DNA of 64,000 bases from Muribaculaceae bacterium (GTDB taxonomy: Bacteria; Bacteroidota; Bacteroidia; Bacteroidales; Muribaculaceae), in the NCBI GenBank assembly GCA_017557425.1, contig JAFYYU010000015.1, forward strand, positions 124,001-188,000, written 5' to 3'. The notes below the pieces were generated by a model. It was given only the letters and a program-made list of their open reading frames with translations, did not search any database and was not told the origin of the DNA. Of the stretch, positions 5,565 to 37,007 are shown in pieces. Numbering within the stretch: position 1 is the first letter of the stretch; every line of letters starts with the position of its first letter. Made by a program: the position numbers and the translations under genes.

Positions 5565-5602
5565 TTTATCTCAATATTTATATGGTTATTATTCTGATAT
5601 CT

Positions 5603-6331: not shown

Positions 6332-6390
6332 AATCACGGGCAAACTGCTTGAGACGCTCCAAAAGAACGTTTGTTATCACTTGTCACCGA

Positions 6391-7319: not shown

Positions 7320-9107
7320 TTACATCCTGTCGGGGACCTCGATGCCCAAGAGAGACATGCCGCGACGGATGACATTTCCGACGGTCTCGCTCAGCAGCTG
7401 GCGGAAGCAGCGCACGGCGGCATCCTGCTCCTTGAGGATGCTGCAGTCGTGGTAGAACTGGTTGTACTCCTTGGCCAGATCATAGACATAGTTGGCAATC
7501 AATGCCGGGCTGTAGTTGCGGCCTGCATCGGCAACAGCGACTGTGAAGTCGGCCAGACGCTGGATGAGCGAAGTCTCCTTCTCGTTGGGAGCCACACCGC
7601 TGATGTCCACAGACTTATAATCCTCACAGCACTTGCGCAGCACCGACTGGATGCGGGCATGAGTGTACTGGATAAAGGGGCCAGTGTTGCCGTTGAAATC
7701 AATCGACTCGCTGGGATCGAAGAGCATGGTCTTGCGCGGGTCAACCTTGAGGATGAAGTACTTCAAAGCACCCAAACCAATCATGCGCAGCACATCGTCA
7801 CGCTCGTCCTCGGGCACGCCTTGCAGGCGACCAGGCTCGTTGGCCATATCGGTGGCCGTGGCAATCATCTCGTCCATGAGCTCATCGGCATCGACGACGG
7901 TTCCCTCGCGAGATTTCATCTTTCCGTTGGGCAGCTCTACCATGCCGTAGGAGAAATGCACCAGATCCTTGCCCCACTTGAAGCCCAGCTTGTCGAGCAA
8001 CAACGAGAGCACCTGGAAGTGGTAGTTCTGCTCATTGCCCACGACATAGATCATGCGGTCGATGGGATAGTCCTTGTAACGCAACTGGGCGGTGCCAATG
8101 TCCTGCGTCATATAAACCGAGGTGCCGTCGCTGCGCAGCAGCAGCTTGTGGTCCAAGCCGTCGGGCGTGAGGTCTGCCCACACGCTCTGGTCCTCCTTGC
8201 GGTAGAACAGGCCCTTTTCAAGTCCCTCGAGCACGGTGTCGCGTCCCACCAGATAGGTGTCGCTCTCGTAGTAGATCTTGTCGAAGGAAACGCCCATGCG
8301 CTTATAGGTCTCGTCAAAGCCGGCATAGACCCAATTGTTCATTTTTTCCCACAAGGCACGAACCTCGGGGTCGCCAGCTTCCCAGCGGCGCAGCATGTCG
8401 TGCGCTTCCTGGATGAGTGGCGCCTGCTTTTCGGCCTCTTCAGGACTCATACCTTTCTCGACCAGTTCCTTGATTTCGGCCTTATAATGCTTGTCAAATG
8501 CCACATAGAAGTCGCCGATCAGGTGGTCACCCTTCTTGCCCGTGGACTCGGGGGTAGCGCCGTTACCCCATTTGAGCCATGCGAGCATCGACTTGCAGAT
8601 GTGGATGCCGCGGTCGTTGACGATATTGGTCTTGACGACCTTGTAGCCGTTGGCCTCCATAATCTTTGAAAGGCTGTAACCCAGCAGGTTGTTGCGGACA
8701 TGTCCCAGATGCAGTGGCTTGTTGGTGTTGGGCGACGAGTACTCGATCATCACCAGCTGGCTGTCATCGGTCGCAGCGGTAAAGCCATAGTCGGGCGTCT
8801 GTGCAATGTGCTGGAGTACGCCAGTCCAGAACGACGGCTTGATGGTGATATTCAAGAAGCCCTTGATGACGTTGAATTTCTCCACGGCATCACAGTGGGC
8901 CAGCATGTACTCGCCGATCTCCTGAGCCGTCACGTCGGGCGCCTTACGGGAGGCCTTCAAGAACGGGAACACCACAATCGTCTCGTTGCCCTCAAATTCC
9001 TTCTTGGTCGTTTGGGGAACAATCTTTTCGGCGGGAAAATCCACGCCATACAACTCCTTGACCGCCACGGCTGTGGCCTGAGCCAGAATGTTATCAATCG
9101 ACATCAT
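7320..9107 (-). CDS. argS: Arginyl-tRNA synthetase
   Basis: The 595-residue class I enzyme charges tRNA-Arg with arginine in the cytosol. It shows the HIGH-type motif in PLHLGHVRNN (about residue 136), a KMSKS-equivalent region in NGKMKSREGTVVDADELMDE, and the C-terminal anticodon-binding DALR domain ending SLLGIEVPDRM. Two adjacent ATGs (9107 and 9104) can serve as the start. The start overlaps the end of the upstream PorU-like gene by 14 bases, an odd pairing since the upstream gene encodes a very large secreted protein. No promoter of its own was identified; one could lie inside the upstream gene. Confidence 0.97.
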   Translation of the reverse strand: MMSIDNILAQATAVAVKELYGVDFPAEKIVPQTTKKEFEGNETIVVFPFLKASRKAPDVTAQEIGEYMLAHCDAVEKFNVIKGFLNITIKPSFWTGVLQHIAQTPDYGFTAATDDSQLVMIEYSSPNTNKPLHLGHVRNNLLGYSLSKIMEANGYKVVKTNIVNDRGIHICKSMLAWLKWGNGATPESTGKKGDHLIGDFYVAFDKHYKAEIKELVEKGMSPEEAEKQAPLIQEAHDMLRRWEAGDPEVRALWEKMNNWVYAGFDETYKRMGVSFDKIYYESDTYLVGRDTVLEGLEKGLFYRKEDQSVWADLTPDGLDHKLLLRSDGTSVYMTQDIGTAQLRYKDYPIDRMIYVVGNEQNYHFQVLSLLLDKLGFKWGKDLVHFSYGMVELPNGKMKSREGTVVDADELMDEMIATATDMANEPGRLQGVPEDERDDVLRMIGLGALKYFILKVDPRKTMLFDPSESIDFNGNTGPFIQYTHARIQSVLRKCCEDYKSVDISGVAPNEKETSLIQRLADFTVAVADAGRNYSPALIANYVYDLAKEYNQFYHDCSILKEQDAAVRCFRQLLSETVGNVIRRGMSLLGIEVPDRM

Positions 9108-12100
9108 CTATATCAAGTTCTTGGTTTTTATTTATTTTGTTTTTAGTCATCTGCTGGTTTTTACCGGCTGTCTTGACCGGGTCAAGCACAATGAGTTTGT
9201 AAATGGGAGTGCCGCCAAAATTCTTGCCATCATAGTAGGAACCATAGTAGCGGTAGAGACCCGCGGGAACCTTGTGGCCATTCATGTCCTTCATGTCCCA
9301 GGTGACGGGTAAGCTGCCGATATCAGATTTCCACACGAGGTTTCCCGTGGCGTCGGTAACACGGACCATCATATCGGGGAGCATGGTCATATCAGACTCG
9401 ACATCAAAGGTCACACTGCCATTGACAAAAGCCGGAGACTTGTCACAACAGATATCGGCCACAGCGTACTGGCCCACCATGAATGAAATGGTACGGGTAG
9501 AACAGTTGCCCAGCATATCATAGACCCAAAAAGTCAACGTGTGCATACCTTCGGTCAGATTCGACAGCGGGAGCTGGATAGCTACCGACTTGCAGCCATC
9601 AGATACCAACGCATTGCTTGTCACATCGCTAAAGGATTGCTTGCCACCATCAAGCTGTAGCTTCATACTGGTGGCGGCAGAGTTAGGCTGGATGTCAATG
9701 CACTCATTGTCACGCACATTGATGTAAAGCATGGCATCAGGAGAGACGACTGCACCATCGGTGAACGAGGTGGCATCGTTCAAGTACATGGCCTCGATAA
9801 CGGGGGGCTCATTGTCAACCACAATCTGGGACTCGTCATAGGGGAGCATCTCGACCTGTTTGGTAAAGCCGTTCACCATGTAATCGCTATTGTCCTTGTG
9901 GGCATAAACACGCAACAGCATCATCAGCGTCTCGGTCTTACGGCCCAACTGTATTCTGGGGGCAATCATTGTACCTGTAAAATGGCCATTGACAACCCGA
10001 CCCGTAATCTCGGCCAACTTGGGACGGTCCATAAAGATGTCACGTTCCACCGTCTGGATGCCTGCAAAACCCGTCAATGTAGTGAACAAGTATTCACGGT
10101 CATAGAGTATCACCGTTGCGTCACCATTGAAACCAGTATCTATGTTGCCGTCGGCGTCCACTACCTGGGCCTGGATCTCGAACTTGGAAAGCGGTCTGAT
10201 TCCTGCAATCGACATCGTGTCGGTCATGTCGGTGCCGTTCACGCTCGTGATATTGAAGCGGGATATGGGATAGTTTATCTTTATCGCCGGGTCACCCAGC
10301 AGGATAAATGACAACTTGTTGGCATTCGCAGTGGTAAAGCCGAGTTTGCTCTGCTTGTAGGCCTCGCCCAACGTGGGCATGACGCCCTTGCTGTCGTAGC
10401 TGAACAGCGCATTGATGAAATACTGATTCAGCCTGTCGTTAGAGCTGCCACTCACCATGCGGGTTGATGCCAACAGTGCGATGGCACCGCCATCACGTTT
10501 GTGGAACATCGACTCGGCAATGCCACGCATCTCGTTGTCATAGTGAGCCACATCACAGCAAGCCAACGACATGATGGGATAGTGGGGATAGGATGTGCGG
10601 GAAACATCGGCTGTCGTCCACATATTGTTATATTTTGTCAACGACACCGAACCTGCGTGGCCCACATAGGTGGCAAAGTACGCGCCATCCCTGAGCAGAT
10701 AACTTAACTGACGTTTGGCCTCGGTGGCTGTCTTGCGGTCAACGTCAACCCCCTCTTCGGTCGTTGAACGGGGATACATGCTATTATGGACCGTATTCAC
10801 GTGCATACCCGTGTTCAAGTTATTGTCAATCTGGTTCTGATATCCTTGACCCTGGTACAAGTACTCTCCCCCGTCGGGCGAGTCACTCGACACTATGGTG
10901 TGGTTACGCCACACACCATAGTCGGGGTTGGCGTAATACTCCACAATCTTATCCACATCGCTGCGGGCCTCGTCGGCATCTGCACAAGTTATGCGGCCAA
11001 CTCCAATGCTCAACTTGTCTTTGCTCAGATCAGTACCCGAAAAATCCTCCAGAAAACCGAAGAAATCGTCACTCGTGTAGCTGCCACCCAGTTCATTGCT
11101 GATATCACTCTGAAAAGTAAGCAACATATCAGGATGACTACCGAACAACCCCCGGTTGTCATACGAGCCCGTGCCAAAGAGCAGCAGATTCTTGAACTTG
11201 TCGCTGTCACGGTCATACAGCATCTTGCACAACAGGCGGTAGGCCATCGCATCGCGGGTGCCGCTGGAGAATTCGTTGAACACCTGATCCTGGGTCACGA
11301 CAGCGACGTCAATGCCGTCAACGGCACGATGCAGGTCGGCAAGACGTGAAGCCTCCTGGAAGAACGTATTGCTTGTGATGATGAGGAAGTCAGGGACCGA
11401 CATCCCGTGCAGGTTCTGGTTTGCCACCCGCTCAAAGCCTGAAATCTTCTTCAGGGTCTTTGTGGGGTCAAAGGCCACATAAGTCGAAGCAGAGATCGGG
11501 GTTGAGAAGAATGCCAGACCGCTGCCGCTCTCGTCATTATAGGGATAGGTCGTCATCACCATCGGCGACTTTGTGTTGTTAATATACCACACCACCGTAC
11601 TGGGCGACGCACCAGGCAACTGGAACCGCTCATTGCCAGTGGTTGCCGCATAGCCCATCATCATCTGGTTGTCGGCCATATCGGCCAAGATATTATTCTG
11701 CTGATAAGTCAGGATAAAATAATCCAATCTGGCCAAACTGGCGGGATGGGACTCATCGGTGTACCTGAGCAGCGGTTCATACTGCCCCCTCTCGGCAGGA
11801 ACGCTCAACTTGAGTGATTCGTAAGGAGAGACATCATTGTAGAAGACATACTCAAGCGGCATATGGATGGCCGATGTGGATTCGTCATACTGTAGGGTAT
11901 CGGCAACGCCACCACTGTGCAAGACCGCCATGGCATAAGACGTTTGGGCAGCATTGGCGGCAATGGACGAATGGACCACGACAGAGCTGTCAGCAAGATG
12001 CGGCATGTAGTAGTCTATCTTTAATGATTGGCGAGCGAAACCTTCACCCAGCACCTCTTTCCCCGAGGTGGCCACACTCAACAGCTCACGCTCATGGTAA

Positions 12101-12615
12101 AAGTAGTTAATACTAGTGGGAACGTTCACATAGTCGCTCAACTCGGCCACGTTCTTCTTGCTCGGGGTCAAATCCGATGAAGATTCCTGGGTAAGGAAAT
12201 AACATCCTACCTGAGAATACGGGTTAAAGGCTCGAGTATAGTGAGGTAACGTAGAATAATTGGACAGTGAAAAAGATACTGGACCATTACCGTAGAAACA
12301 AATCTTGTCGTTAGTGCGCAAGATGGGCACGGCCTTCAAGTCATCGCTAGCACTACCGTTGAGTTTCTCATTGATACCGTTGCCCCCCACGCCATAAATG
12401 TGGACCTTTGCCGGATTGCTGAATCCCATTTCCAACAACTCGTCGTAGGTGATTTCATATACTCCGCTTTCAGGAATCGATATTTTAACCCAATAGCCCG
12501 TGGCGAGTTTGGAACGGGTGGCATAGATTGATGGAGTGAACGCGTAAGCATAGCCGACGCACAAGAAAGCCATCATGGCCACGCACGTTAATTGAAGTTT
12601 TGTCAGTTTACGCAT
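9094..12615 (-). CDS. PorU-like C25 family peptidase, array copy 1
   Basis: The 1173-residue protein has a signal peptide and the PorU-like N-terminal region (SKLATGYWVKISIPESGVYE). A C25 (gingipain/PorU) catalytic domain follows, with the His in YVGHAG and the Cys in LACCDVAHYDN, and then Ig-like domains. It ends with an FlgD-like segment (VPAGLYRYYGSYYDGKNFGG). Because it shares the N-terminal domain with PorU, it is closer to the sortase than to secreted gingipains. Unlike the other copies, it continues about 20 residues past the common end in a Lys/Asn/Asp-rich tail (KNQQMTKNKINKNQELDID) and runs into argS. It follows copy 2 after 52 bases, and only a weak TAAGTTTG -7 element (12659-12652) is seen there. 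Confidence 0.88.
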   Translation of the reverse strand: MRKLTKLQLTCVAMMAFLCVGYAYAFTPSIYATRSKLATGYWVKISIPESGVYEITYDELLEMGFSNPAKVHIYGVGGNGINEKLNGSASDDLKAVPILRTNDKICFYGNGPVSFSLSNYSTLPHYTRAFNPYSQVGCYFLTQESSSDLTPSKKNVAELSDYVNVPTSINYFYHERELLSVATSGKEVLGEGFARQSLKIDYYMPHLADSSVVVHSSIAANAAQTSYAMAVLHSGGVADTLQYDESTSAIHMPLEYVFYNDVSPYESLKLSVPAERGQYEPLLRYTDESHPASLARLDYFILTYQQNNILADMADNQMMMGYAATTGNERFQLPGASPSTVVWYINNTKSPMVMTTYPYNDESGSGLAFFSTPISASTYVAFDPTKTLKKISGFERVANQNLHGMSVPDFLIITSNTFFQEASRLADLHRAVDGIDVAVVTQDQVFNEFSSGTRDAMAYRLLCKMLYDRDSDKFKNLLLFGTGSYDNRGLFGSHPDMLLTFQSDISNELGGSYTSDDFFGFLEDFSGTDLSKDKLSIGVGRITCADADEARSDVDKIVEYYANPDYGVWRNHTIVSSDSPDGGEYLYQGQGYQNQIDNNLNTGMHVNTVHNSMYPRSTTEEGVDVDRKTATEAKRQLSYLLRDGAYFATYVGHAGSVSLTKYNNMWTTADVSRTSYPHYPIMSLACCDVAHYDNEMRGIAESMFHKRDGGAIALLASTRMVSGSSNDRLNQYFINALFSYDSKGVMPTLGEAYKQSKLGFTTANANKLSFILLGDPAIKINYPISRFNITSVNGTDMTDTMSIAGIRPLSKFEIQAQVVDADGNIDTGFNGDATVILYDREYLFTTLTGFAGIQTVERDIFMDRPKLAEITGRVVNGHFTGTMIAPRIQLGRKTETLMMLLRVYAHKDNSDYMVNGFTKQVEMLPYDESQIVVDNEPPVIEAMYLNDATSFTDGAVVSPDAMLYINVRDNECIDIQPNSAATSMKLQLDGGKQSFSDVTSNALVSDGCKSVAIQLPLSNLTEGMHTLTFWVYDMLGNCSTRTISFMVGQYAVADICCDKSPAFVNGSVTFDVESDMTMLPDMMVRVTDATGNLVWKSDIGSLPVTWDMKDMNGHKVPAGLYRYYGSYYDGKNFGGTPIYKLIVLDPVKTAGKNQQMTKNKINKNQELDIDDVD

Positions 12616-12667
12616 ATTTCATATTATTAGTTGTTGTCAATTGTCTGTACTCAAACTTACACGCCAG

Positions 12668-15600
12668 CTAGTTGCGTATGGCCTTGACTGGTTCAAGAAT
12701 AATCAGGTTCTTGATGGACGTGCCACCATAGTTCACACCGTCATTATAGGTTCCGAAGTAGCGGTACAGTCCTGCCGGCACCTTGTTGCCGTTCATGTCC
12801 TTCATGTTCCAAGTCACGGGGAAACTGCCGGCATTGGTCATCCACACCATGCGGCCAAGTGCATCGGTAACACGGATTGTCATATCGGGAAGAACTGACA
12901 TCTCGGTCTTCACATCAAAGGTGATCATGACGTCACTATCGAGGAATGCGGGCATCTTGTCGGCCATGATTTCAGCGTCTGAGCCTTGTCCAACGACAAA
13001 GGATATGGTGCGGCTCGCATGATTGCCCAGCATGTCTGACACCGTATAGGTCAGCGTGTGCAATCCCACGGATAAGTTCGATACGGGGAACTCAATGTTT
13101 ACTACCTTGCCGCCATCGTTCGTCGTGGCATAGCACACCACGTCCTCGTAAGACTGCTTGCCACCGTCAAGCTGGAGCTTCATCGTATTGGCAACTGAAT
13201 TGGGCTGCATGCTTACGCCCTCGTTGTCGCTCACGTTGATATACAATACCGAGTTTGGAGCAACCACCGAGCCATCGGTAAAGGTCGCCGCATCGTTCAT
13301 GTACATGGCCGTGATCACCGGTGCCTCGTTGTCGTTGATAGCCGTCGACGGGTCGAACGGCATCATCATTACCTGCTTGGTGAAACCGTTCACCATGTAA
13401 TCACTGTTGTCCTTGTGGGCATAAACGCGCAACAGCATCATCGAGGAATCGTTCGGATGATCTATCGTAATCGTTGGGGCAATCATTGTTCCTGAGAACA
13501 TGCCATTAGTGACGCGGCCAGTTATCTCGGCTATCTTGGGACGGTCAAAATATATGTCACGGTCCACCACACTGCCCGAGAAGGAGGGTGATAAAGTTGT
13601 GAACACCTCTTCCTTGTCATAGAGCGACAACGTTGCGTCGCCGTTGAAGCCGGTATCGATATTTCCATCGGCATCAACAACTTGCACCTTTACCTCAAAC
13701 CTGCTCAACGGGGCAATTTGGGCCATCTGGGTGCCTGTCATGTCAGTGCCGTTCACGCTCGTGATGTTGAAACGGGAAATGGGATAGTTCACCTTTATTG
13801 CCGGGTCGCCCAGCAGGAAGAACGACATTTTGTTGATATTTGCCGAAGTAAATCCCAGTTTGCTCTCCTTGTAGGCCTCGCCTAGCGTAGGCATCACACC
13901 CTTGCTGTCGTAGCTGAACAGCGCGTTGATAAAGAATTGGTTCAACTTGTCATTACTGGAAGCGAACACCATGCGGGACGACGTCAACAATGCGATGGCT
14001 CCGCCGTCTCGTTTGTGGAACATCAACTCGGCGATGCCGCGCGTGTCGTTGTCGAAGTGCGCCACGTCGCAGCAGGCGGTTGTGAAAATCGGAAAGTGGG
14101 GATATGTCGTGCGGGCGACGTCACCTGGAACCCACATCCTGTTCTGCTTGGTAAACGAGGAGGGACCAGCATGGCCGACGTAGGTGGCGAAATAGGTGCC
14201 TGCCTTCAGGTAGTTGCTCATCACCCGCTTGGCCTCGGTAGCTGTCTTACGTTTAACATCGAAAGCGGGCTCCATTGTCGAGCGGGGATACATGCTGTTG
14301 TGAACGGTGTTGACGTGCATGCCCGTGTGCAGATCATTATCGATCTGGTTCTGGTAACCTTGACCCTGGAACATGTAGTCTCCCTGATCAGGCGAGTCGC
14401 TCATGACAAGCGTGTTGTTGCGCCACACGCCGTAATCGGGATTAGCATAGTACTCCACAATCTTGTCAACGTCGCTGCGGGCCTCATCGACATCAGTACA
14501 GGTGATGCGGCCAATACCGATGCGCAATTTGTCGCCGGCGACGTTTGAGCCCGAGTTATCGTCCAACAAACCGAAGAAATCGTCGCTCGTAAAACTGTTG
14601 TTCTCTACATTGCTGTTATCACTCTGGTAGGTCAGCAGGTCATCGGGATGCTGGCCCATGAGTTCGCGGTTGTCGAACGAGCCAGTACCGAACAGCAGCA
14701 GGTTCTTGAACTTGGTGTTGTCACGGTCATAGAGCATCTTGCAAAGCAGGCGATAGGCCATCGCATCACGGGTGCCGCTGGAGAACTCGTTGAAGACCTG
14801 GTCCTGGGTCACCACGGCGACGTCGATGCCGTCAACGGCACGGTGCAGGTCGGCCAGGCGGTTGGCTTGCTCGAGGAACGCGTCGGTCGTGATAATGAGG
14901 AAATCGGGAACCGGCATGCCGTGCAGATTCTGGTTCTCAACGGGCTGATATCCCGAGATCTTCTTCAGCGTCTTGGTCGGATCAAATGCCACATACATCG
15001 AGCGGGAAATCGGTGTAGAGAAGAAGGAGATTCCTTTACCTGCTGCATCGTCATAAAGGATCGTCTGCATCGCCATCGGGCTGTTGGTGTTGTTGAGATA
15101 CCACACCACGGTGCTCGAGGAGGCATTAGGCAGCATGAATCGGTCTTGTCCCCTCGTGACGCCATAGCCCATGAGAAGCTGGTTATCGGCAGCATCGGCT
15201 AGGATGTTCTCGCGGGTATAAGTCATAATGAAGTAGTCCAGGCGGGCGACGGAAACCGGGACAGGAGCCGTCGAAAACGTGATTATGGGTTCATATTGGC
15301 CGTGCTCGGCGGGATTTGTGAGTTTTTGCTTCGTGAAGGGCGACGCAAAGTTATAGTAAACATTCTCCGTTGGCCGATAGATGCGTGAAGACGCTTGAGA
15401 ATAAGACGTCGTGTCGGCGACACCGCCACTGTGCAACACCGAGCCGGCAAACACTGTCCCCTCGGCAAAGGCAGCGATGGTCGAGTGCACGACGACGGTG
15501 CTGTCGGCCAGATGCGGCAGATAGTAGTCGATGAGCAGCGGTTGCCTGGAGAAATCCTCTCCCAGCATCTCCTTGCCCGAGCTGGTCAAGCTCGTCAGCT

Positions 15601-16129
15601 CATACTCGTGGAAAAAATAGCCCAAGCTGAACGGATTGTCCACATACTCACTCGGTGGCGACACCACCTTCTCGGCTGGCGTCAGGTCAGACTTGGTATC
15701 CTCGGTCAAGAAATAGCAACCCACCTGGGAATAGGGGTTGAACATGCGCGTGAAATGAGGATTCGTGCTGTAGTCACTGATTGTGAATGCCACAGGACCA
15801 TTGCCATAGAAACAGATCTTGTCGTTTGTTCTTAAGATAGGCACCTGCTTCAGATCATCGGCGGCAGAGCCGTTGAGATTCTCGCTGATGCGGTTGCCGC
15901 CCGTGCCGTAAACATGTACCCGTGCCGGATTGGTGAAGCCCATTTCACGGAGCTCGTTATAGGTGATTTCATAGACTCCATTGTCGGGAATCGTAATCTT
16001 CACCCACTTACCCGTTGCGAGCTTGGACTGGGTCGCATAGATTACGGTATTGAACGCATCCGCATGGCCAGCGCAACAGACGGCTAGCATGACGAAGGAT
16101 ACGACTCGAAGTATGAATAGTTTGCGCAT
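12668..16129 (-). CDS. PorU-like C25 family peptidase, array copy 2
   Basis: The 1153-residue protein has the same layout as its neighbours: signal peptide (MRKLFILRVVSFVMLAVCCA), PorU-type N-terminal region, C25 domain, Ig-like modules and FlgD-like end (GLYRYFGTYNDGVNYGG). The catalytic His is in YVGHAGPSS and the Cys in TTACCDVAHFDND. The catalytic core (LHRAVDGIDVAVVTQDQVFN and the following FSSGTRDAMAYRLLCKML) is identical or nearly so in all four copies, while the N-terminal third diverges. It has its own strong promoter (16213-16243) behind the terminator of copy 3, so it can be expressed independently. Confidence 0.88.
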   Translation of the reverse strand: MRKLFILRVVSFVMLAVCCAGHADAFNTVIYATQSKLATGKWVKITIPDNGVYEITYNELREMGFTNPARVHVYGTGGNRISENLNGSAADDLKQVPILRTNDKICFYGNGPVAFTISDYSTNPHFTRMFNPYSQVGCYFLTEDTKSDLTPAEKVVSPPSEYVDNPFSLGYFFHEYELTSLTSSGKEMLGEDFSRQPLLIDYYLPHLADSTVVVHSTIAAFAEGTVFAGSVLHSGGVADTTSYSQASSRIYRPTENVYYNFASPFTKQKLTNPAEHGQYEPIITFSTAPVPVSVARLDYFIMTYTRENILADAADNQLLMGYGVTRGQDRFMLPNASSSTVVWYLNNTNSPMAMQTILYDDAAGKGISFFSTPISRSMYVAFDPTKTLKKISGYQPVENQNLHGMPVPDFLIITTDAFLEQANRLADLHRAVDGIDVAVVTQDQVFNEFSSGTRDAMAYRLLCKMLYDRDNTKFKNLLLFGTGSFDNRELMGQHPDDLLTYQSDNSNVENNSFTSDDFFGLLDDNSGSNVAGDKLRIGIGRITCTDVDEARSDVDKIVEYYANPDYGVWRNNTLVMSDSPDQGDYMFQGQGYQNQIDNDLHTGMHVNTVHNSMYPRSTMEPAFDVKRKTATEAKRVMSNYLKAGTYFATYVGHAGPSSFTKQNRMWVPGDVARTTYPHFPIFTTACCDVAHFDNDTRGIAELMFHKRDGGAIALLTSSRMVFASSNDKLNQFFINALFSYDSKGVMPTLGEAYKESKLGFTSANINKMSFFLLGDPAIKVNYPISRFNITSVNGTDMTGTQMAQIAPLSRFEVKVQVVDADGNIDTGFNGDATLSLYDKEEVFTTLSPSFSGSVVDRDIYFDRPKIAEITGRVTNGMFSGTMIAPTITIDHPNDSSMMLLRVYAHKDNSDYMVNGFTKQVMMMPFDPSTAINDNEAPVITAMYMNDAATFTDGSVVAPNSVLYINVSDNEGVSMQPNSVANTMKLQLDGGKQSYEDVVCYATTNDGGKVVNIEFPVSNLSVGLHTLTYTVSDMLGNHASRTISFVVGQGSDAEIMADKMPAFLDSDVMITFDVKTEMSVLPDMTIRVTDALGRMVWMTNAGSFPVTWNMKDMNGNKVPAGLYRYFGTYNDGVNYGGTSIKNLIILEPVKAIRN

Positions 16130-16212
16130 ATTCTTTCTTGTTCTAGTTAATTACTTATAACTCTGTCGATTATATCGTGCTCAGTTCGCTATCTGACGAT
16201 AGAATCAAACTA

Positions 16213-16243
16213 CAAAGGTATAAATTATTTCTAGAACTCCAAA
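16213..16243 (-). promoter_or_regulatory. Strong Bacteroidetes promoter for array copy 2
   Basis: TTTG (16243-16240) and TACCTTTG (16220-16213) on the minus strand are separated by exactly 19 bases. The start codon at 16129 is 84 bases downstream. Confidence 0.8.
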
Positions 16244-16317
16244 ATCAAGTCTGTTTTCTGACATTATCTGCAAAAAAATCATAGTAAGCCAGCCAAGTAG
16301 GTCGTTTCTCAAAGATG

Positions 16318-16355
16318 AAAAAAGTGAGGCGGTTTCCTTCTTGGGAAACCACCTC
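16318..16355 (-). terminator. Intrinsic terminator after array copy 3
   Basis: GAGGCGGTTTCC (16326-16337) pairs with GGAAACCACCTC (16344-16355) with one mismatch. On the minus strand a run of six T follows (16323-16318). It lies 41 bases after the stop at 16396. Confidence 0.85.
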
Positions 16356-16395
16356 CTGATGAGAGTATGAGTTGTCAATCATTAACGGAATTCCG

Positions 16396-19300
16396 TCACT
16401 CCTTACTAGCAGAAATCGGATCCAGCACGATGAGGTTGTTGAGCGGTGTTCCGCCAAAGTTCACCCCGTCGTTGTAAGTGCCGAAGAAGCGGTAAAGGCC
16501 TGCCGGCACCTTGTTGCCGTTGAAGTCCCTCATGTCCCATGTCACGGGGAAGGCATTGGCGTTGGTCATCCACAGGAGTTTACCCGTCGCATCGGTGACG
16601 CGGATCACCATGTCAGGTATAAGCGTCAGCTCGGTTTCCACATCAAAGTTGACAACACCGTCGCGGAATGCCGGCATCTTGTCGGTAACAAGGTCGACAA
16701 CAGTATTCTGGCCGACCATAAAGGTAATCGTGCGGCTGGCGCCATTGCCCAGCATGTCATATACCGTATAGGTCAAGGTATGCCTGCCCGCCGAAAGGTT
16801 TGCCAGGGGGAAGGCGATATTTACCACTTTGCTGCCGTCTTCCAGTGTTGCATAACAAGCCACATCCTCGTAAGACTGCTTGCCGCCGTCGAGGAGCAGC
16901 GTCATACTGTTGGCGACCGAGGTGTTCTGGGTGCTGATGGCCTCGTTGTCGCTGGCGCTGATATAAAGCATGGAGTTGGGGGCGATCATGGCGCCGTCGG
17001 CAAAGGTAGCCTCGTCGTTTAAGAACATTGAAGTGATTACCGGTGCCTCGCTGTCGTTGATGGCTGCCGATTCATCAAAGGGCAGCATCGTCACCAGCTT
17101 GGTGAAACCGTTCACCATGTAGTTGCTGTTGTCTTTGTGGGCATAAACTCGGATTAACACTTCCTGATTGCCGGTCATCGGGGATTTGGGAGCAATCATC
17201 GTTCCCGTGAAAATGCCATTTTTGACGCGGCCTGTTATCTCGGCCAACTTGGGGCGATCGGTGTAAATGTCACGGTCTGTTATGGAGCTGTTGTAGGTGA
17301 AGGACAGCGTCGTGAACAGGTCCTCGCGGTCATAAAGTGTTACGGTTGCGTCGCCGTTGAAGCCAGTGTCAATATTTCCCTCGGCATCAACAACTTGCGC
17401 CTTTACCTCAAACCTGCTCAGCGGGGAAATTAGAGCCATCTGGGAGCCTGTTGTCATGTTGGTGCCGTTCACGCTCGTGATGTTGAAACGTGAAATGGGA
17501 TAGTTCACCCTAATTGCGGGGTCGCCCAGCAGGAAAAACGACATTTTGTTGACGTCAGTCGAAGTAAAGCCCAGTTTGCTTTCCTTGTAGGCCTCGCCCA
17601 GCGTGGTCATCACTCCCTTGCTGTCGTAACTGAATAGGGCATTGATAAACTGTCGATTTAACCTGTCATTTGGGGAAGAATAAACCATGCGTGACGAAGT
17701 CAGCATCGCAATGGCGCCGCCGTCACGTTTGTGGTACATCAGTTCGGCGATGCCGCGCGTGTCGTTGTCGAAGTGGGCCACGTCGCAGCAGGCAGTAGTG
17801 TAAATCGGATAGTGGGGATATGTCGTGCGGGCAACGTCTCCCGTAGTCCACATTCTGTTCATTTTGGTGAATGAGGAGGGGCCGGCGTGGCCGACGTAGG
17901 TGGCGAAATAGGCGCCCGCCTTGAGGTAGTTGCTTATCATTCGCTTGGCCTCGGTGGCCGTTTTGCGTTTAACCTCGAAAGTGGGCTCCATTGTGGAGCG
18001 GGGATACATGCTATCGTGAACGGTGTTGACGTGCATGCCCGTGTTCAGGTCATTATCGATCTGATTTTGATAGCCTTGGCCCTGGAACATGAATTCCCCT
18101 TTATCGTAAGAATCGCTCATCACGAGGGTATTGTTGCGCCACACGCCGTAGTCGGGGTTGGCGTAGTATTCCACAATCTTGTCCACGTCGCTGCGGGCCT
18201 CGTCGGCATTGGCACAGGTGATGCGGCCTACGCCGATGCGGAGCTTGTCGCTGGCGATGTTTGATCCCGAGTTGTCGTCCAACATCCCGAAGAAATCGTC
18301 ACTCGTGTAGCTGCTGTTCTCTACATGGCTGTTGTCGCTCTGGTAGGTGAGGAGGTCGTCGGGGTGCTGGCCCATAATTTCGCGGTTGTCGAACGAGCCC
18401 GTGCCGAAGAGCAGCAGGTTCTTGAACTTGTTGCTGTCGCGGTCATAGAGCATCTTGCACAACAGGCGGTAGGCCATGGCGTCGCGGGTGCCGCTGGAGA
18501 ACTCGTTGAAGACCTGGTCCTGGGTCACCACGGCGACGTCGATGCCGTCAACGGCCCGGTGCAGGTCGGCGAGGCGGTTGGCCTGCTCAAGGAAGGCGTC
18601 GGTCGTGATGATGAGGAAATCGGGGACCTGCATGCCGTGCAGGTTCTGGTTCTCGACGGGCTGATATCCCGCGATCTTCTTCAGTGTCTTGGTCGGGTCA
18701 AAGGCCACATACAGCGAGCGTGTCATTCCGCTGGAGAAGAATGCGCGTCCCTTGCCGCTCTCGTCATTATAAGCTGTTGTTTCCACCACCATCGGGCTGT
18801 TGGTGTCGTTGAGATACCACACGACGGTGCCGGAGGGGGCATTGGGCAGCATGAAGCGGTCATTGCCCTTGGTGACGCCATATCCCATGAGCAACTGGTT
18901 GTCGGCGGCGCCGGCGAGGATGTTCTCGTGGGTAAAAGTGAGAATGAAGTAGTCCAGGCGAGCGACGGAAACCGTGGCGGTGTCGGAGAGCGTGATCAGG
19001 GGCCTGTACTGGCCGTGCTCGGCGGGATGCGTGAGCTTGAGCTTAGCGAAGGGCGAGGCGAAGTTGTAATACACATTACTCGAGGCCTTGTTGATGCGGG
19101 ACGAAGAGGCGGAATATACCGTCGTGTCGGCGGCGGCGCCGCTGTAGAGCACGGCGTTGGCATAAGTCGTCTCGCTCGTGAACGCCGCGATGGTGGAGTG
19201 CAGGACGACGGTGCTGTCGGCCAGGTGCGGGAGATCGTAGTCGATGAGCACCTGCTGCCTGGAGAAGTCCTCGCCGAGCATCTCCTTTCCCGAATTGGAT

Positions 19301-19842
19301 ACGCTCATGAGGTCGCGCTCGTGGTAGAAGCAGTCGAGGCTGAGGGGGTTATCGACATACTCGCCGGGTGGTGTGGTCACCTTGGCGGTTGGCGTCAGGT
19401 CGGGGGTGTCCTCCTCGGTCAAGAAGTAGCAGCCCACCTGGGAATAGGGGTTGAACACGCGTGTGAAATGCGGGCTGGAAGTGATGTCACTGATCGTGAA
19501 CGCCACGGGTCCGTTACCATAGAAACAGATCTTGCTGCTCGTCCTGAGGATGGGCACGGGTGCCAAGTCATCGGGGGCGGTGCCGTTGAGCTTCTCGGCG
19601 ATGCGGTTGCCCCCCGTGCCATAAACGTGGACGCGCGCGGGATTGGAGAAGCCCATCCTGCGGAGCTCGCTATAAGTGATCTCATAGACGCCGTTGGCGG
19701 GTATCGAGATCTTGACCCACCTGCCCGTGGCGAGCCTGGACCGGGTCGCATAGACAGAGGCATTGAACGCCGCGGCATAGCCGGCGCCCAGGACGGCCAG
19801 GATGGCCACACACAGAACTTGAAATATTGTCGGTTTACGCAT
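16396..19842 (-). CDS. PorU-like C25 family peptidase, array copy 3
   Basis: The ATG at 19842 gives 1148 residues and the signal peptide MRKPTIFQVLCVAILAVLGA, aligned with the other copies. The open frame extends 93 bases further upstream, but that part covers the promoter and is not expected to be translated. Domains match the family: PorU-like N-terminus, C25 domain with His in YVGHAGPSS and Cys in TTACCDVAHFDND, Ig-like region and FlgD-like end (GLYRFFGTYNDGVNFGG). It has a strong promoter (19906-19936) and a terminator (16318-16355), so it forms a single-gene transcription unit. Local GC content looks higher than in copies 1 and 2, judged by eye. Confidence 0.88.
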   Translation of the reverse strand: MRKPTIFQVLCVAILAVLGAGYAAAFNASVYATRSRLATGRWVKISIPANGVYEITYSELRRMGFSNPARVHVYGTGGNRIAEKLNGTAPDDLAPVPILRTSSKICFYGNGPVAFTISDITSSPHFTRVFNPYSQVGCYFLTEEDTPDLTPTAKVTTPPGEYVDNPLSLDCFYHERDLMSVSNSGKEMLGEDFSRQQVLIDYDLPHLADSTVVLHSTIAAFTSETTYANAVLYSGAAADTTVYSASSSRINKASSNVYYNFASPFAKLKLTHPAEHGQYRPLITLSDTATVSVARLDYFILTFTHENILAGAADNQLLMGYGVTKGNDRFMLPNAPSGTVVWYLNDTNSPMVVETTAYNDESGKGRAFFSSGMTRSLYVAFDPTKTLKKIAGYQPVENQNLHGMQVPDFLIITTDAFLEQANRLADLHRAVDGIDVAVVTQDQVFNEFSSGTRDAMAYRLLCKMLYDRDSNKFKNLLLFGTGSFDNREIMGQHPDDLLTYQSDNSHVENSSYTSDDFFGMLDDNSGSNIASDKLRIGVGRITCANADEARSDVDKIVEYYANPDYGVWRNNTLVMSDSYDKGEFMFQGQGYQNQIDNDLNTGMHVNTVHDSMYPRSTMEPTFEVKRKTATEAKRMISNYLKAGAYFATYVGHAGPSSFTKMNRMWTTGDVARTTYPHYPIYTTACCDVAHFDNDTRGIAELMYHKRDGGAIAMLTSSRMVYSSPNDRLNRQFINALFSYDSKGVMTTLGEAYKESKLGFTSTDVNKMSFFLLGDPAIRVNYPISRFNITSVNGTNMTTGSQMALISPLSRFEVKAQVVDAEGNIDTGFNGDATVTLYDREDLFTTLSFTYNSSITDRDIYTDRPKLAEITGRVKNGIFTGTMIAPKSPMTGNQEVLIRVYAHKDNSNYMVNGFTKLVTMLPFDESAAINDSEAPVITSMFLNDEATFADGAMIAPNSMLYISASDNEAISTQNTSVANSMTLLLDGGKQSYEDVACYATLEDGSKVVNIAFPLANLSAGRHTLTYTVYDMLGNGASRTITFMVGQNTVVDLVTDKMPAFRDGVVNFDVETELTLIPDMVIRVTDATGKLLWMTNANAFPVTWDMRDFNGNKVPAGLYRFFGTYNDGVNFGGTPLNNLIVLDPISASKE

Positions 19843-19905
19843 ATGCTTAGTTTTTATCATTCCCTCGTGTATCGCTATTGACCGAATACCGATTTTTTCA
19901 ACCCA

Positions 19906-19936
19906 CAAAGATATACTTTTTTTCTTTAACCCCAAA
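19906..19936 (-). promoter_or_regulatory. Strong Bacteroidetes promoter for array copy 3
   Basis: TTTG (19936-19933) and TATCTTTG (19913-19906) on the minus strand are 19 bases apart. The start at 19842 is 64 bases downstream. This also argues against the longer open frame that begins at 19935. Confidence 0.8.
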
Positions 19937-19970
19937 ACCGAGGCTGATTTCCACCACTATAAATAAATAA

Positions 19971-20006
19971 GACAAAACAAAAGCCAGAGGGATCAATCCC
20001 CTGGCT
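19971..20006 (-). terminator. Intrinsic terminator after array copy 4
   Basis: AGCCAG (19982-19987) pairs with CTGGCT (20001-20006), and GGG/CCC extends the stem inward past one bulged A. A T-rich stretch follows on the minus strand. It lies 35 bases past the stop at 20041. Confidence 0.75.
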
Positions 20007-20040
20007 ATCAGTAAGCGTTCACCCGAGTGACAATCTGCGG

Positions 20041-23000
20041 TTAATCGTTGTTGCCGCCCGTCGGGTCCAGGACGATGAGCTTGTTGATGGACGTGCCGCC
20101 ATAGTTCACGCCGTCATTGTAGGTACCGAAGTAACGGTACAGCCCTGCCGGCACCTTATTGCCGTTCATGTCCTTCATGTCCCAGGTCAAGGGGAAACTG
20201 CTAGTAGTGGTCATCCACATGAGCTTACCCGTCGCATCGGTGACGCGTACCACCATGTCAGGAACAAGCGTCAGCTCGGTCTCCACATCAAAGTTGACGA
20301 CATCGTCGAGAAACGCCGGCATCTTGTCGGCAACTAGGCTGGCAACGGTATTCTGGCCGACCATGAACGTGATGGTGCGGCTAGCGCCGTTGCCCAGCAT
20401 GTCATATACCATGTAGGTCAACGTATGCATTCCCTCAGAGAGGTTTGACAACGGGAACTCGATGTTCACCGCCCTGCCGCCGTCGGCCACCTGGGCATAG
20501 CATGTCACGTCCTGGAAAGACTGCTTGCCGCCGTCGAGCAGCAGCTTCATGCTGTTGGCAGCCGAGTTGGCCTGCATGGCGATTCCCTCGTTGTCGCTGG
20601 CGCTGATATAAAGCATGGCGCTGGGAGCAATCACGGCACCGTCGGCAAAGGTCACCTCGTCGTTCACGAACATTGACGTGATTACGGGTGCCTCGGTATC
20701 GTCGATGGCTGCTGTTTCATCAAACGGCAACATCGTTACCTGCTTGGTGAAACCGTTCACCATGTAGTCGCTGTTGTCCTTGTGGGCATAAACGCGAATC
20801 TGCACGTCATCGCCATTGGCCATCGGCGACTGGGGAACAATCATCATTGCCGTGAACATACCGTCAACCACGCGGCCCGTTACCTGGGCCAATATGGGAC
20901 GATCCCTGAAAATGTCACGATCAGTAGGTTCACCGTCGACCTTGCATGTCAACGTCGTGAAATAATCCTCCATGTCATAAAGGGTCACCGTTGCATCGCC
21001 ATTGAAACCGGTGTCGATATTGCCTTCACCATCCACCACTTGAGCCTTGATCTCAAACTTGCATAACGGGCTGAGCTGAGCCTTTGCAGTGCCGGTCACG
21101 TCGGTGCCGTTCACGCTCGTGATGTTGAAGCGGGAGATGGGATAGTTCACCTTCATTGCCGGGTCGCCCAGCAGGAAGAACGACATCTTGTTGACATCTG
21201 ACGTGGTGAAGCCCAATTTGGCATCCCTGTAGGCCTCACCCAAGGTGGGCATCACGCCAACGCTGTCGTAGCGGAACATCGAATTGATGAAGTACTGGTT
21301 CAGCTTGTCGTTACCCGAAGCGAACACCATGCGCGACGAGGTGAGCATTGCGATGGCGCCGCCGTCACGCTTGTGGTACATCAGCTCGGCGATGCCGCGC
21401 GTGTCGTTGTCGTAATGGGCGACGTCGCAGCAGGCGGTGGTGAAAATGGGATAGTGGGGATAAGGCGAGCGGGCGACGTCACCGGTAGTCCACATCTTGT
21501 TCACCTTGGTGAACGAGACTGCTCCGGCATGGCCGACGTAGGTGGCGAAATAGGTGCCGTCGGTGAGGTAGTGATTGATCATTTGCTTGGCCTCGGTAGC
21601 GGCCTTGCGCTCGACCGCAAATGCGGGCTGCGTCGTCGAGCGGGGATACATGTTGTTGTGAACCGCGTTCACGTGCATACCCGTATTCAACTCGTTGTCA
21701 ATCTGGTTTTTATAGCCCTCACCCTGGAACATATACAAACCATTGTCAAAGGCGTCGCTCATGACGAGGGCGTTGTTGCGCCACACGCCGTAGTCGGGGT
21801 TGGCGTAGTATTCCACAATCTTGTCAACGTCGCTGCGAGCCTCGTCGACATCGGTACAGGTGATGCGGCCGACGCCGATGCGCAGCTTGTCGTTGGGAAT
21901 ATTGGTGCCCGAGTTATCGCTCAAAAAGCCGAAGAAATCGTCACTCGTGAAACTCAGGTCCTGAACATGGCTGTTGTCGCTCTGATAGGTAAGCAGGTCA
22001 TTGGGATGCTCACCCATGAGCTCGCGGTTGTCGAATGAGCCCGTGCCAAAGAGCAACAGATTCTTGAATTTGAGGCTGTCACGGTCAAACAGCATCTTAC
22101 ACAACAGGCGGTAGGCCATGGCATCGCGCGTGCCGCTGGAGAACTCGTTGAACACCTGGTTCTGGGTCACCACGGCGACATCGATGCCGTCAACGGCACG
22201 GTGAAGGTCGGCCAGGCGGTTGGCCTGCTCCATATACGCTTCAGTAGTGATGATAAGGAGGTCGGGGACCGCCATAGCATGCAGGTTCTGATTCTCCACT
22301 GACTCGTAACGTGAAATCTTCTTCAGCGTCTTGGTCGGGTCAAAGGCCACATACATCGAGCGGGAGCTGGGGTTGGAGAAGAATGCGAGGCCGCTGCCGC
22401 TGGCACCGTTATAGGTGGTCGTTGTCACTTCCAACGGCTTATTTGTGTTATTAATGTACCAGACCACGGTGCCGGAGGGGGCATTGGGCAGCATGAAGCG
22501 GTCACTGCCCCTCGTGACGCCATAACCCATGAGCAGCTGGTTGTCAACGGCATCGGCGAGAATGTTCTCATGCTTGTAGGTCAAGATGAAATAATCCAGT
22601 CGCCCAATGATGGAATAACCGCTCGAGGTGGTGTATTTAATCAGGGGCTCATACTGGCCATTCTCGGCAGGATTGGTCAATCTCAACGAGCCATAGGGAG
22701 TCGCAAAGTTATATAACGTGTAGCTGTTTTCTGAGGGCATATAGATGCGTGACGAAGCCGTCGTATAAACCGTCGTGTCGGTAACGCCTCCGCTGTGCAG
22801 CACGGCATTGGCATAGGTCATCTCTGACGCATTGGCAGCGATGGCCGAGTGCACGACGATGGTGCTGTCAGCCAGGTGGGGAAGATAATAGTCGATGAGT
22901 ACCCTCTGCTTGGAGAAATCCTCACCCAGCATCTCCTTGCCCGAGCTGGACACGCTCATCAGTTCACGCTCGTGATAGAAGTAGTCCAAACTGACGGGAT

Positions 23001-23493
23001 TGTCGATATAGGAGGTCACTGACACCACGGCCTTTTTCTCCGGCACCAATTCTGCCGCCGACTCCTCGGTCAGGAAGTAGCAACCCACTTGGGAATAGGG
23101 GTTGAACACGCGTGTGTAGTGGGGATTGGTGCTGTAGTCACTGAGGGTGAACGACACAGGCCCGTTACCGTAGAAGCAGATCTTGTCGCCCATGCGCAGT
23201 ATGGGCACCTGATTCAAGTCATCGGCCGCAGAGCCGTTGAGCTGCTCGCTGATGCGGTTACCGCCCGTGCCATAGACGTGGACCTTGCTGGGTGTGGTGA
23301 AGCCCATCTCCAACAATTCGTCGTAGGTAATCTCATAGATTCCGCTTTCGGGGATGATCACCTTTACCCACTTGCCCGTGGCGAGCTTGGACTGGGTCGC
23401 ATAAACCGATGGGTTGAACGCGCTCGCATAGCTGGCGCTCAAGACGGCCATGATGGCCACACAGGCAACTTGAAATTTTGTCAGTTTGCGCAT
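20041..23493 (-). CDS. PorU-like C25 family peptidase, array copy 4
   Basis: The 1150-residue protein has a signal peptide (1-25), a PorU-like N-terminal region (about 30-150), and a C25 catalytic domain (about 400-760) with His655 in YVGHAG and Cys689 in TTACCDVAHYDND. Ig-like modules and an FlgD-like terminus (GLYRYFGTYNDGVNYGG) complete it. The catalytic positions nearly match those known for P. gingivalis PorU (Cys690, from memory). PorU cleaves the C-terminal signal of T9SS cargo and attaches it to A-LPS; whether this paralog does the same is unknown. It begins 41 bases after the FAH-family gene with no clear promoter, so it may be read through from rex. Confidence 0.88.
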   Translation of the reverse strand: MRKLTKFQVACVAIMAVLSASYASAFNPSVYATQSKLATGKWVKVIIPESGIYEITYDELLEMGFTTPSKVHVYGTGGNRISEQLNGSAADDLNQVPILRMGDKICFYGNGPVSFTLSDYSTNPHYTRVFNPYSQVGCYFLTEESAAELVPEKKAVVSVTSYIDNPVSLDYFYHERELMSVSSSGKEMLGEDFSKQRVLIDYYLPHLADSTIVVHSAIAANASEMTYANAVLHSGGVTDTTVYTTASSRIYMPSENSYTLYNFATPYGSLRLTNPAENGQYEPLIKYTTSSGYSIIGRLDYFILTYKHENILADAVDNQLLMGYGVTRGSDRFMLPNAPSGTVVWYINNTNKPLEVTTTTYNGASGSGLAFFSNPSSRSMYVAFDPTKTLKKISRYESVENQNLHAMAVPDLLIITTEAYMEQANRLADLHRAVDGIDVAVVTQNQVFNEFSSGTRDAMAYRLLCKMLFDRDSLKFKNLLLFGTGSFDNRELMGEHPNDLLTYQSDNSHVQDLSFTSDDFFGFLSDNSGTNIPNDKLRIGVGRITCTDVDEARSDVDKIVEYYANPDYGVWRNNALVMSDAFDNGLYMFQGEGYKNQIDNELNTGMHVNAVHNNMYPRSTTQPAFAVERKAATEAKQMINHYLTDGTYFATYVGHAGAVSFTKVNKMWTTGDVARSPYPHYPIFTTACCDVAHYDNDTRGIAELMYHKRDGGAIAMLTSSRMVFASGNDKLNQYFINSMFRYDSVGVMPTLGEAYRDAKLGFTTSDVNKMSFFLLGDPAMKVNYPISRFNITSVNGTDVTGTAKAQLSPLCKFEIKAQVVDGEGNIDTGFNGDATVTLYDMEDYFTTLTCKVDGEPTDRDIFRDRPILAQVTGRVVDGMFTAMMIVPQSPMANGDDVQIRVYAHKDNSDYMVNGFTKQVTMLPFDETAAIDDTEAPVITSMFVNDEVTFADGAVIAPSAMLYISASDNEGIAMQANSAANSMKLLLDGGKQSFQDVTCYAQVADGGRAVNIEFPLSNLSEGMHTLTYMVYDMLGNGASRTITFMVGQNTVASLVADKMPAFLDDVVNFDVETELTLVPDMVVRVTDATGKLMWMTTTSSFPLTWDMKDMNGNKVPAGLYRYFGTYNDGVNYGGTSINKLIVLDPTGGNND

Positions 23494-23534: not shown

Positions 23535-24110
23535 TTACAATCTCACTTTCATATTGAGCACCGGCTGGCCGCCTATACTGGCCGTCATATGCTCGCCTGG
23601 ACTGAGGACACAACCCTCGCCAGCATCACCCGTAAACAGCAGGTCTCCCATCTTGATGCTGCAGCGGGTACTCACTGCCGCTATCATTTCCTCCAACGGG
23701 AACCTCATGTCGTCCAGGCAACATTGTGCCACCACCTTGTCGCCCACCCGGGCCTCGATCGGCGTGTGCATCGCGTCGCGGGCATCCTGCACCAATATCC
23801 AGTCGCCGACAATGGCAGCGCCATCGATTGCCCTGTCCAAACCCGTCAGCCGTTCATCGTCACTGTCGCAGGCGCGGATGGTGAATGCCGCGGCAAACGC
23901 GTCCCAGTAGCGGTGGGCAAACTTGGGCGCCACACACTTGCCCAGGCGGCTCATACGCACCACGATGGAGGGCGTGGCGACAAAACGCCGGGCGAAATCG
24001 GGCACAAAAAACGTTCGACCCGTGTACAGGATCGATGAGTCGGCCATGAGATAGGCTTGGGGGACGCTGTCCTCCTTGCCATAATTCCCAGTGAAGCCAA
24101 TGACCTTCAT
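23535..24110 (-). CDS. Fumarylacetoacetate hydrolase (FAH) family protein
   Basis: The 191-residue protein has the compact FAH fold sequence. PSIVVRMSRLGKCV, a conserved DWILVQDARDAMHTPIE segment and the C-terminal MGDLLFTGDAGEGCVLSPGE (metal-site GD...GEG...PG) resemble the short FahA/YcgM-like hydrolases. The family includes acylpyruvases and oxaloacetate decarboxylases; the substrate is not predictable. It starts 41 bases after rex and is probably in the same transcript, which might link it to redox control. It precedes array copy 4 by 41 bases. Confidence 0.82.
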   Translation of the reverse strand: MKVIGFTGNYGKEDSVPQAYLMADSSILYTGRTFFVPDFARRFVATPSIVVRMSRLGKCVAPKFAHRYWDAFAAAFTIRACDSDDERLTGLDRAIDGAAIVGDWILVQDARDAMHTPIEARVGDKVVAQCCLDDMRFPLEEMIAAVSTRCSIKMGDLLFTGDAGEGCVLSPGEHMTASIGGQPVLNMKVRL

Positions 24111-24151: not shown

Positions 24152-24799
24152 TCAGCTTGTCTGCCCTTGCATCCGGTTATAGATAATCGCCAGGTGGGCA
24201 TATATCGAGGTATTGGCAATCACCACATTCTCGGGAGCCTTGATGCGGTAGGGTGTGAAGTTCCACAGGGCTGTCACGCCGCTGTCGATTGCCAGGTTGG
24301 CAGCCTCTTGAGCCCGCTCTACGGGCACAGTGAGGATAGCGATGGGGATATGGTGCTTGGCCTGCCAAGCCGGTAATTGGTCAATGGAAAACACAGGCAC
24401 ACCACCCAATTGCTTGCCGATAACCTCGTCACGCACGTCAAAGCCGGCCACGATGTTCAGGCCGTAATGCTCTAGGCCATGATCCTGCATCAGAGCGGTT
24501 CCCAGACTACCTGTACCGATCACCACGGCATCGTGGTGCCGGTTGAACCCCAGGAAATCCTCCAGCTCGGTGACCAGGCTGTGCACCTCGTAGCCGATGC
24601 GTGTCTTGCCGCGGATATTGAGAAACGACAGGTCCTTGGCAATCTGTGAAGACTGCACATTGAGCTCCTTGGAAATCTGTGTCGAGGAGACATAATCCAC
24701 ATGCAGGTTGTCCAGCATGCGCACATAGGACAGATACCACGGCAAACGCCTGATGGTGGGCTCGGGAAGGATAATCCGGTTGTCGTTGTTCTTTATCAT
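24152..24799 (-). CDS. rex: Redox-sensing transcriptional repressor Rex
   Basis: The ATG at 24799 gives 215 residues (a TTG at 24808 would add three). The N-terminal winged helix is LPEPTIRRLPWYLSYVRMLD with SSTQISKELNVQSSQIAKDL. A Rossmann NAD(H)-binding domain follows with VVIGTGSLGTAL. The C-terminal helix IYAHLAIIYNRMQ matches the domain-swapped helix of Rex dimers. Rex binds operators when NADH is low and releases them when NADH is high. A -7 element (TAATTTTG, 24837-24830) lies upstream, and one arm of an inverted repeat (24846-24855) sits within the promoter spacer, which suggests repression at its own promoter. FAH lies downstream. Confidence 0.94.
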   Translation of the reverse strand: MIKNNDNRIILPEPTIRRLPWYLSYVRMLDNLHVDYVSSTQISKELNVQSSQIAKDLSFLNIRGKTRIGYEVHSLVTELEDFLGFNRHHDAVVIGTGSLGTALMQDHGLEHYGLNIVAGFDVRDEVIGKQLGGVPVFSIDQLPAWQAKHHIPIAILTVPVERAQEAANLAIDSGVTALWNFTPYRIKAPENVVIANTSIYAHLAIIYNRMQGQTS

Positions 24800-24829
24800 G
24801 TTTATCAATACCTGGATGCAATTAACCTA

Positions 24830-36964: not shown

Positions 36965-37007
36965 CCGAAAGAAACGATAATTGATTGTCATCAATAAAGA
37001 AAAAGCT

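Follow-up and report, generated by a model that had tools for sequence, protein, structure and literature searches.

A second PorU-type lineage, often found beside porV, is amplified into tandem arrays in one genus of Bacteroidales

In a window of 64,000 nucleotides from a Muribaculaceae bacterium (assembly GCA_017557425.1, contig JAFYYU010000015.1, positions 124,001 to 188,000; "window" always means this whole stretch) four neighbouring genes downstream of porU are real, intact and under selection and represent the amplification of a second PorU-type lineage, which we call PorU-b. PorU belongs to the type IX secretion system (T9SS), for which the papers, in the parts available to us, describe one sortase, PorU, which cuts the signals of the cargo and attaches the cargo. 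In a complex with PorV, PorQ and PorZ this enzyme cleaves the C-terminal domains of the cargo and links it to surface polysaccharide. With moderate confidence we propose from sequence comparison that PorU-b would be a second C-terminal-signal peptidase or sortase of the T9SS, working via the PorV shuttle that it would share with PorU.

The four minus-strand open reading frames (ORFs) at 9094–23493 are intact and encode full-length PorU-type C25 proteins of 1148–1173 aa (Table 1). Each contains a Peptidase_C25 domain (253–283 bits) and scores 675–702 bits with the NCBIfam PorU model NF033707 (cut-off 420), covering it from profile position 2 to 1071–1093 of 1095. For copy 2 the mechanical ORF (16396–19935) begins at TTG 19935, and a start at ATG 19842 gives an N-terminus resembling that of the other copies. 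ORFs, C25 domain and model scores thus confirm the four tandem full-length PorU-like genes of the original prediction, and the catalytic motifs it named, YVGHAG for the histidine and ACCDVAH for the cysteine, are both present as described. Among each other the copies are 67–77% identical (77% for the closest pair, 67–69% for comparisons with copy 4), and they share 30–32% identity with the canonical PorU of the same genome. The source is a metagenome-assembled genome (MAG) of 2.58 Mb in 24 contigs with six C25 genes.

In four of the six copy pairs of the window the proportion of synonymous differences (pS) is 0.50–0.66 and the synonymous divergence (dS) about 0.8–1.5, and therefore the array is no assembly duplicate. 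The ratio of nonsynonymous to synonymous divergence (dN/dS) is 0.14–0.19 in these pairs and 0.12–0.18 between three window copies and their relatives in RUG401 (L043), a related MAG with four copies at the same place, of which the first is truncated by the locus end; argS and porV come after the array there. The tested copies are under purifying selection. Copy 4 groups with orthologues in related species (99 in the Shimodaira–Hasegawa-like approximate likelihood ratio test, SH-aLRT), and therefore the copies are kept as separate lineages. An array that provides extra dosage of one enzyme with no new specificity would fit the close tandem arrangement and the copy number of one to four between species, but we regard it as quite unlikely, as the copies have diverged to the identities and dS values given above at low dN/dS and form separate orthologous lineages across species, whereas homogenisation would be tolerated if only dosage mattered.

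The catalytic histidine and cysteine are kept in all 89 array proteins and in all 39 PorU-b proteins from outside the genus of the window, and we take the histidine to be H657 in the numbering of Porphyromonas gingivalis PorU. The cysteine is C690 in this enzyme (PMC4560394, PMC5562754), and an arginine 32 residues further on (Cys+32, R722 in P. gingivalis) is likewise kept in 89/89 array proteins and 39/39 PorU-b from outside the genus. In the available part of their paper, Gorasia et al. report that PorU conserves this arginine and that Arg- and Lys-gingipains lack it, and they compare it with the arginine of sortases (PMC4560394). A profile of the four copies has P. gingivalis PorU (6za2) as its sole match in the PDB at E ≤ 0.01, and a profile of PorU and PorU-b together gives 833 bits with 6za2, 46 with gingipain R and 34 with Lys-gingipain. 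A grouping with the gingipains, which according to the original prediction would have spoken against PorU-like copies, is ruled out by these scores (833 vs 46 bits) and by the invariant arginine; as the trees described below held no gingipain, this point rests on profile scores and arginine and not on a tree.

PorU has an ATCEF-like sequence around the cysteine, whereas most array proteins read ACCDVA or ACCNVA there. This change, together with the report that some T9SS cargo is released and not anchored (PMC11285876, seen in part), would suit a C-terminal-signal peptidase that only hydrolyses and frees cargo to the medium, with PorU anchoring cargo. We consider such a division unlikely, as the arginine proposed to accompany the sortase reaction is invariant, although the present data nowhere separate hydrolysis from transpeptidation. 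It is very unlikely that the copies are relics or scaffolds with no catalytic role: inactive forms do occur, as the catalytic histidine and cysteine are both gone from another PorU paralogue of the genus in five of its six loci, but all 89 array proteins keep histidine, cysteine and arginine, and the pairs tested are under purifying selection.

To place the copies among other PorU proteins we reconstructed phylogenetic trees. FastTree, run on 223 proteins, united all 89 array proteins in one clade (support 1.00) and joined them with 39 PorU-b proteins from outside the genus in a larger clade (0.95), separate from the PorU sequences of genus and family. In a quick IQ-TREE run with 75 rows both the array and the array plus the PorU-b of other genera had an SH-aLRT value of 100, with a warning of long branches for L177_1 with L070_1 and for L108_1 with L073_0. 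In an earlier FastTree run without most PorU-b of other genera the array clade had a support of just 0.07. Two extra C25 stretches meant as outgroups did not match the profile and were excluded. Judged from these trees, the array arose when one PorU-b branch was amplified at the level of the genus. Four independent recent duplicates of canonical PorU are rejected by the trees in favour of one older paralogue lineage; the original reading as extra copies of PorU, if four separate duplicates were meant, is corrected to one older lineage, often beside porV, which was amplified in one genus.

Searching 25 other genera of the family, with 55 genomes in total, we obtained a second match to the PorU model at E ≤ 1e-100 in 37 genomes and a third one in G385. 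The second gene falls within the PorU-b clade in 36 of the 36 examined (G353, with a partial second match, was left out), and PorU-b is thus present in 36/55 genomes. This includes L169, L171 and L173, whose PorU-b have canonical PorU as best BLAST match, yet are placed in the PorU-b clade. L109_1 from G057, a genome of a different family, also falls on the PorU-b side (SH-aLRT 93, FastTree 1.00), and G057 carries the same gene block as the PorU-b loci; therefore the duplication that gave rise to PorU-b probably predates the family. Tandem PorU pairs were also seen in other Bacteroidales families, in L106, L107 and L108, which lie outside the PorU-b clade, and in L110, whose second gene is partial and absent from the trees.

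The gene neighbourhood is conserved as well. In the window a Rex-type gene and a fumarylacetoacetate (FAA)-hydrolase-like gene sit between PorU and the array, and among the 36 PorU-b loci of other genera of the family Rex is found upstream of PorU-b in 35 and PorU ahead of it in 20. PorV is encoded directly downstream of PorU-b (<200 bases) in 20/36 loci, while in two the fetched stretch ended just past PorU-b; the complete block PorU – Rex – FAA-hydrolase-like gene – PorU-b – PorV is present in eight. In P. gingivalis the genes for PorU and PorV carry the neighbouring numbers PG0026 and PG27 in the part of the source available to us (PMC4560394), and thus PorU-b often occupies the porV-adjacent place. 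This location also bears on the idea that the copies are secreted proteases on a PorU scaffold, which act on outside proteins like gingipains do. The C25 domain, the genus-specific amplification, the absence of a conserved basic residue from the sorting domain of roughly half the array proteins and the tandem C10 secreted peptidases elsewhere in the window would all suit such proteases. We disfavour this explanation as improbable, because the copies have the full PorU architecture and PorU-model score, the arginine at Cys+32 is invariant and reportedly absent from gingipains, and PorU-b adjoins porV in so many loci of other genera.

The genus of the window consists of gut bacteria that have not been cultured, with many from ruminants. 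Within it the PorU model matches in 37/37 genomes searched, the source genome included, with two to seven matches each. For 32 genomes the PorU-b copies downstream of PorU could be counted, with one copy in 12, two in 11, three in seven and four in two genomes; G008, G009, G013, G026 and G030 (5/37) were omitted as their genes lie on contig ends, the counts of G014 and G028 are possibly cut by contig ends, and G021 was counted with one frame-broken copy. Arrays of at least two copies are thus common in the genus (20/32 countable genomes, one of these with a frame-broken copy). The original prediction would have been refuted had such arrays already been described as routine in related genomes; the literature searched describes no such array. 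Another genus has two tandem PorU-b ahead of porV (L186 in G385), and therefore a small PorU-b array exists outside the genus of the window as well. The expectation that T9SS genomes normally have one PorU was partly right: two matches over the cut-off occur in 77 of 264 PorU-bearing Bacteroidales genomes, a sample that includes the source genome, for which at most two candidates per genome were scored and in which some pairs are gene fragments (e.g. G042). The genus genomes are mostly labelled Prevotellaceae, Muribaculaceae, Porphyromonadaceae or Bacteroidales. From the 31 genus loci of the named-genome scan 17 belong to RUG genomes, three come from sheep, roe deer or yak and 11 have no stated ruminant host; the later RUG series we take to be rumen genomes too. 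The RUG designation itself stands for rumen genomes in the part of the publication available to us (PMC5830445).

Table 1. Features of the porU–porV region of the window, with positions counted from its first nucleotide.
Feature	Position	Strand	Remarks
PorU-b copy 1	20041..23493	-	1150 aa; NF033707 702 bits; His, Cys, Arg kept
PorU-b copy 2	16396..19842	-	1148 aa from ATG 19842; NF033707 688 bits; dN/dS 0.19 vs copy 1
PorU-b copy 3	12668..16129	-	1153 aa; NF033707 692 bits; orthologue L043_1
PorU-b copy 4	9094..12615	-	1173 aa; NF033707 675 bits; distinct orthologous lineage common to related species, with L043_2 and L046_3, SH-aLRT 99
Canonical PorU	24997..28425	-	1142 aa; NF033707 939 bits; separate PorU clade
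Rex-like regulator, part of conserved block	24152..24808	-	PF06971 and PF02629
FAA-hydrolase-like gene, part of conserved block	23535..24110	-	PF01557 62 bits; synteny
PorV shuttle	2208..3380	-	NF033710 461 bits; 5.7 kb beyond array; directly after PorU-b in many other genera
Terminator-like hairpin between copies 1 and 2	19982..20006	-	9 pairs; consensus match only
Terminator-like hairpin between copies 2 and 3	16326..16355	-	12 pairs; consensus match only

Terminator-like hairpins like the two in Table 1 are about as frequent in the region as expected (19 found on both strands vs 17.3 expected); the two might hint that the copies they separate are expressed independently.

In all 12 genomes analysed for the T9SS machinery (eight of the genus, among them the source genome, and four of other genera) we found one full-length SprA per genome, with an extra partial match in three, and one strong PorV per genome, plus one weaker match of the PorV/PorQ family over the cut-off and in some genomes matches below it. 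So it is the sortase that has been multiplied and not, within the range of these tests, the shuttle or the translocon. A separate T9SS with its own shuttle was rejected, as a second strong PorV or full-length SprA was found in none of the 12 genomes. In the sorting domain of the copies the key glycine and the Gly-x-Tyr motif are present in 88/89 array proteins, the remaining one being cut there; the PorU-b from outside the genus have the Gly-x-Tyr in 39/39 and the glycine in 31/39. Outside the genus, genera with PorU-b are richer in recognised type A C-terminal domain (CTD) signals (TIGR04183; 20 vs 5 genera, Mann–Whitney p = 0.004), with medians of 19 in 37 genomes with PorU-b and 10.5 in 18 genomes without it, an association only, in which "without" means no second match at E 1e-100, so that weak homologues may escape.

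In the mechanism that we infer, PorU-b, like PorU, would be exported through Sec and afterwards, by means of its own C-terminal domain, through the one T9SS translocon, and PorV would hold it at the cell surface. Its Cys/His/Arg centre would cleave the signals of cargo brought by the same PorV shuttle, and the new C-terminus of the cargo would be joined to a surface amine or released to water. The old duplication would have placed PorU-b beside porV. In the genus of the window PorU-b was amplified and its copies diverged, most likely widening or specialising the use of cargo (or of acceptors), with canonical PorU keeping the ancestral task. Sortases for distinct cargo or acceptors, as suggested in the original prediction, are thus a plausible role for the copies, which may differ from each other in their substrates.

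Several observations weigh against a second sortase that works via PorV. In 14 of the 36 loci of other genera porV was not found after PorU-b within the stretch examined, and the key glycine of the sorting domain is missing in 8/39 PorU-b from outside the genus. A basic residue near the C-terminal end is present in 67/67 PorU of genus and family and only in 43/89 array proteins and 13/39 other PorU-b, and window copies 2 and 3 have an asparagine at this position of the alignment. For P. gingivalis a conserved lysine in the last strand and a C-terminal motif important for export are described in the part of the source available to us (PMC11285876). With these changed residues the export of PorU-b or its binding to PorV may differ from that of PorU, and in the sequence the lost basic residue is the chief indication of such a possible difference in surface retention or export. 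The cargo is puzzling as well, as recognised type A signals number 3–14 in 24 genus genomes and 11–15 in three more, and from 30 to at least 113 in 12/14 genomes of other families (none in the other two); with so few recognised cargo proteins in the genus, many sortases appear odd. The number of PorU-b copies showed no relation to that of recognised CTDs in the genus (Spearman 0.26, p = 0.32, 17 of 24 genomes having both counts). A dockerin tail (see below), tried as cargo signal of PorU-b, was rejected as there is no copy-number relation either (Spearman -0.20, p = 0.35, 24 genomes; -0.21 with candidate numbers). Finally, long and short CTDs are reported for P. intermedia in a paper whose accessible part mentions no second PorU, so that a second sortase is not obviously needed for such a diversity.

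Outside the window, on the same contig, we found a full-length PorU paralogue (G000:C13:226852-230163; L002, L194) that is 61% identical to PorU and has its catalytic histidine changed to arginine and the cysteine to alanine. Six loci of this kind are known to us (L193–L198): five have the cysteine replaced by alanine and have lost the histidine (arginine in four, cysteine in one), and L193 retains both residues; L195 and L196 were absent from the trees. In four pairs the dN/dS of the dead PorU paralogue is 0.25–0.37, and judged from its residues the paralogue is a retained dead PorU.

Furthermore, six window genes (3486–6343 and 36981–46243) end with a dockerin domain, among them three tandem C10 (streptopain-type) peptidases at 36981–44221 with a Spi inhibitor prodomain and a C-terminal dockerin. 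Dockerin matches number 29–153 in each of 24 genus genomes, values that are lower bounds in 20/24 as 150 of the candidates were scored, and 0–9 in 55 genomes from the rest of the family. Cohesin gave at most four weak matches in each of the 24 genus genomes and none in nine of them. The 30 best-scoring loci contain 31 dockerin proteins, of which 24 end no more than four residues past the dockerin and seven have it internally or near the N-terminus. In the available part of a paper on rumen Bacteroidetes the role of dockerins in polysaccharide-utilisation loci is called not defined (PMC7480376). As many dockerins and PorU-b arrays coincide in one genus, they count as one event, and a link between dockerins and PorU-b is speculative. 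Only tentatively, and with more doubt than for a second sortase as such, we suggest that PorU-b could be a second T9SS sortase class with a function of its own, multiplied so that the sets of exported proteins processed, or the acceptors used, differ between the copies, all via one shared PorV; the dead PorU may then be a decoy or regulator, and the dockerin proteins of the genus, many ending in dockerin with almost no cohesin present, could be cargo whose sorting tag escapes recognition.

Searches for PorU paralogues or multiple PorU found no description of such a PorU array in the literature covered, with most subscription journals outside the search. Since the PorU-b of the window pass the NCBI PorU model, automatic annotation would probably call them PorU and hide the lineage. 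A conserved second sortase lineage beside porV would make it testable whether the sorting step splits by cargo or by acceptor, and this is relevant to the way in which fibre degraders among the rumen Bacteroidales position their enzymes, dockerin proteins included.

Compared with known systems the array is closest to PorU itself (P. gingivalis PG0026, PDB 6za2), with which it shares length, C25 domain, Cys/His dyad, the arginine at Cys+32, a FlgD-like sorting domain with an extra hairpin (from the alignment) and a gene position beside porV in many genera. It differs in its identity of 30–32% to the PorU of the same genome, in a cysteine motif that is mostly ACCDVA or ACCNVA where PorU has an ATCEF-like one, in a C-terminal basic residue that is not conserved and in up to four tandem copies beside canonical PorU. 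PorU2 (NF052324) is also a C25-based putative T9SS sortase, but membership of the array in it is ruled out by scores of 83–113 bits against a cut-off of 450. The gingipains RgpB and Kgp have a C25 catalytic domain with the Cys/His dyad as well; in contrast to PorU, their similarity to the array is weak (46 and 34 bits) and covers part of the protein, and the arginine at Cys+32 is reportedly absent from them (PMC4560394). The Type B CTDs of Flavobacterium johnsoniae with their dedicated PorP/SprF shuttles, as far as described in the part of the source available to us (PMC12618676), resemble the array in that T9SS sorting is specialised by duplicated components, but there it is the shuttle that is multiplied, whereas in the genus of the array the sortase is multiplied, with one strong PorV found per genome.

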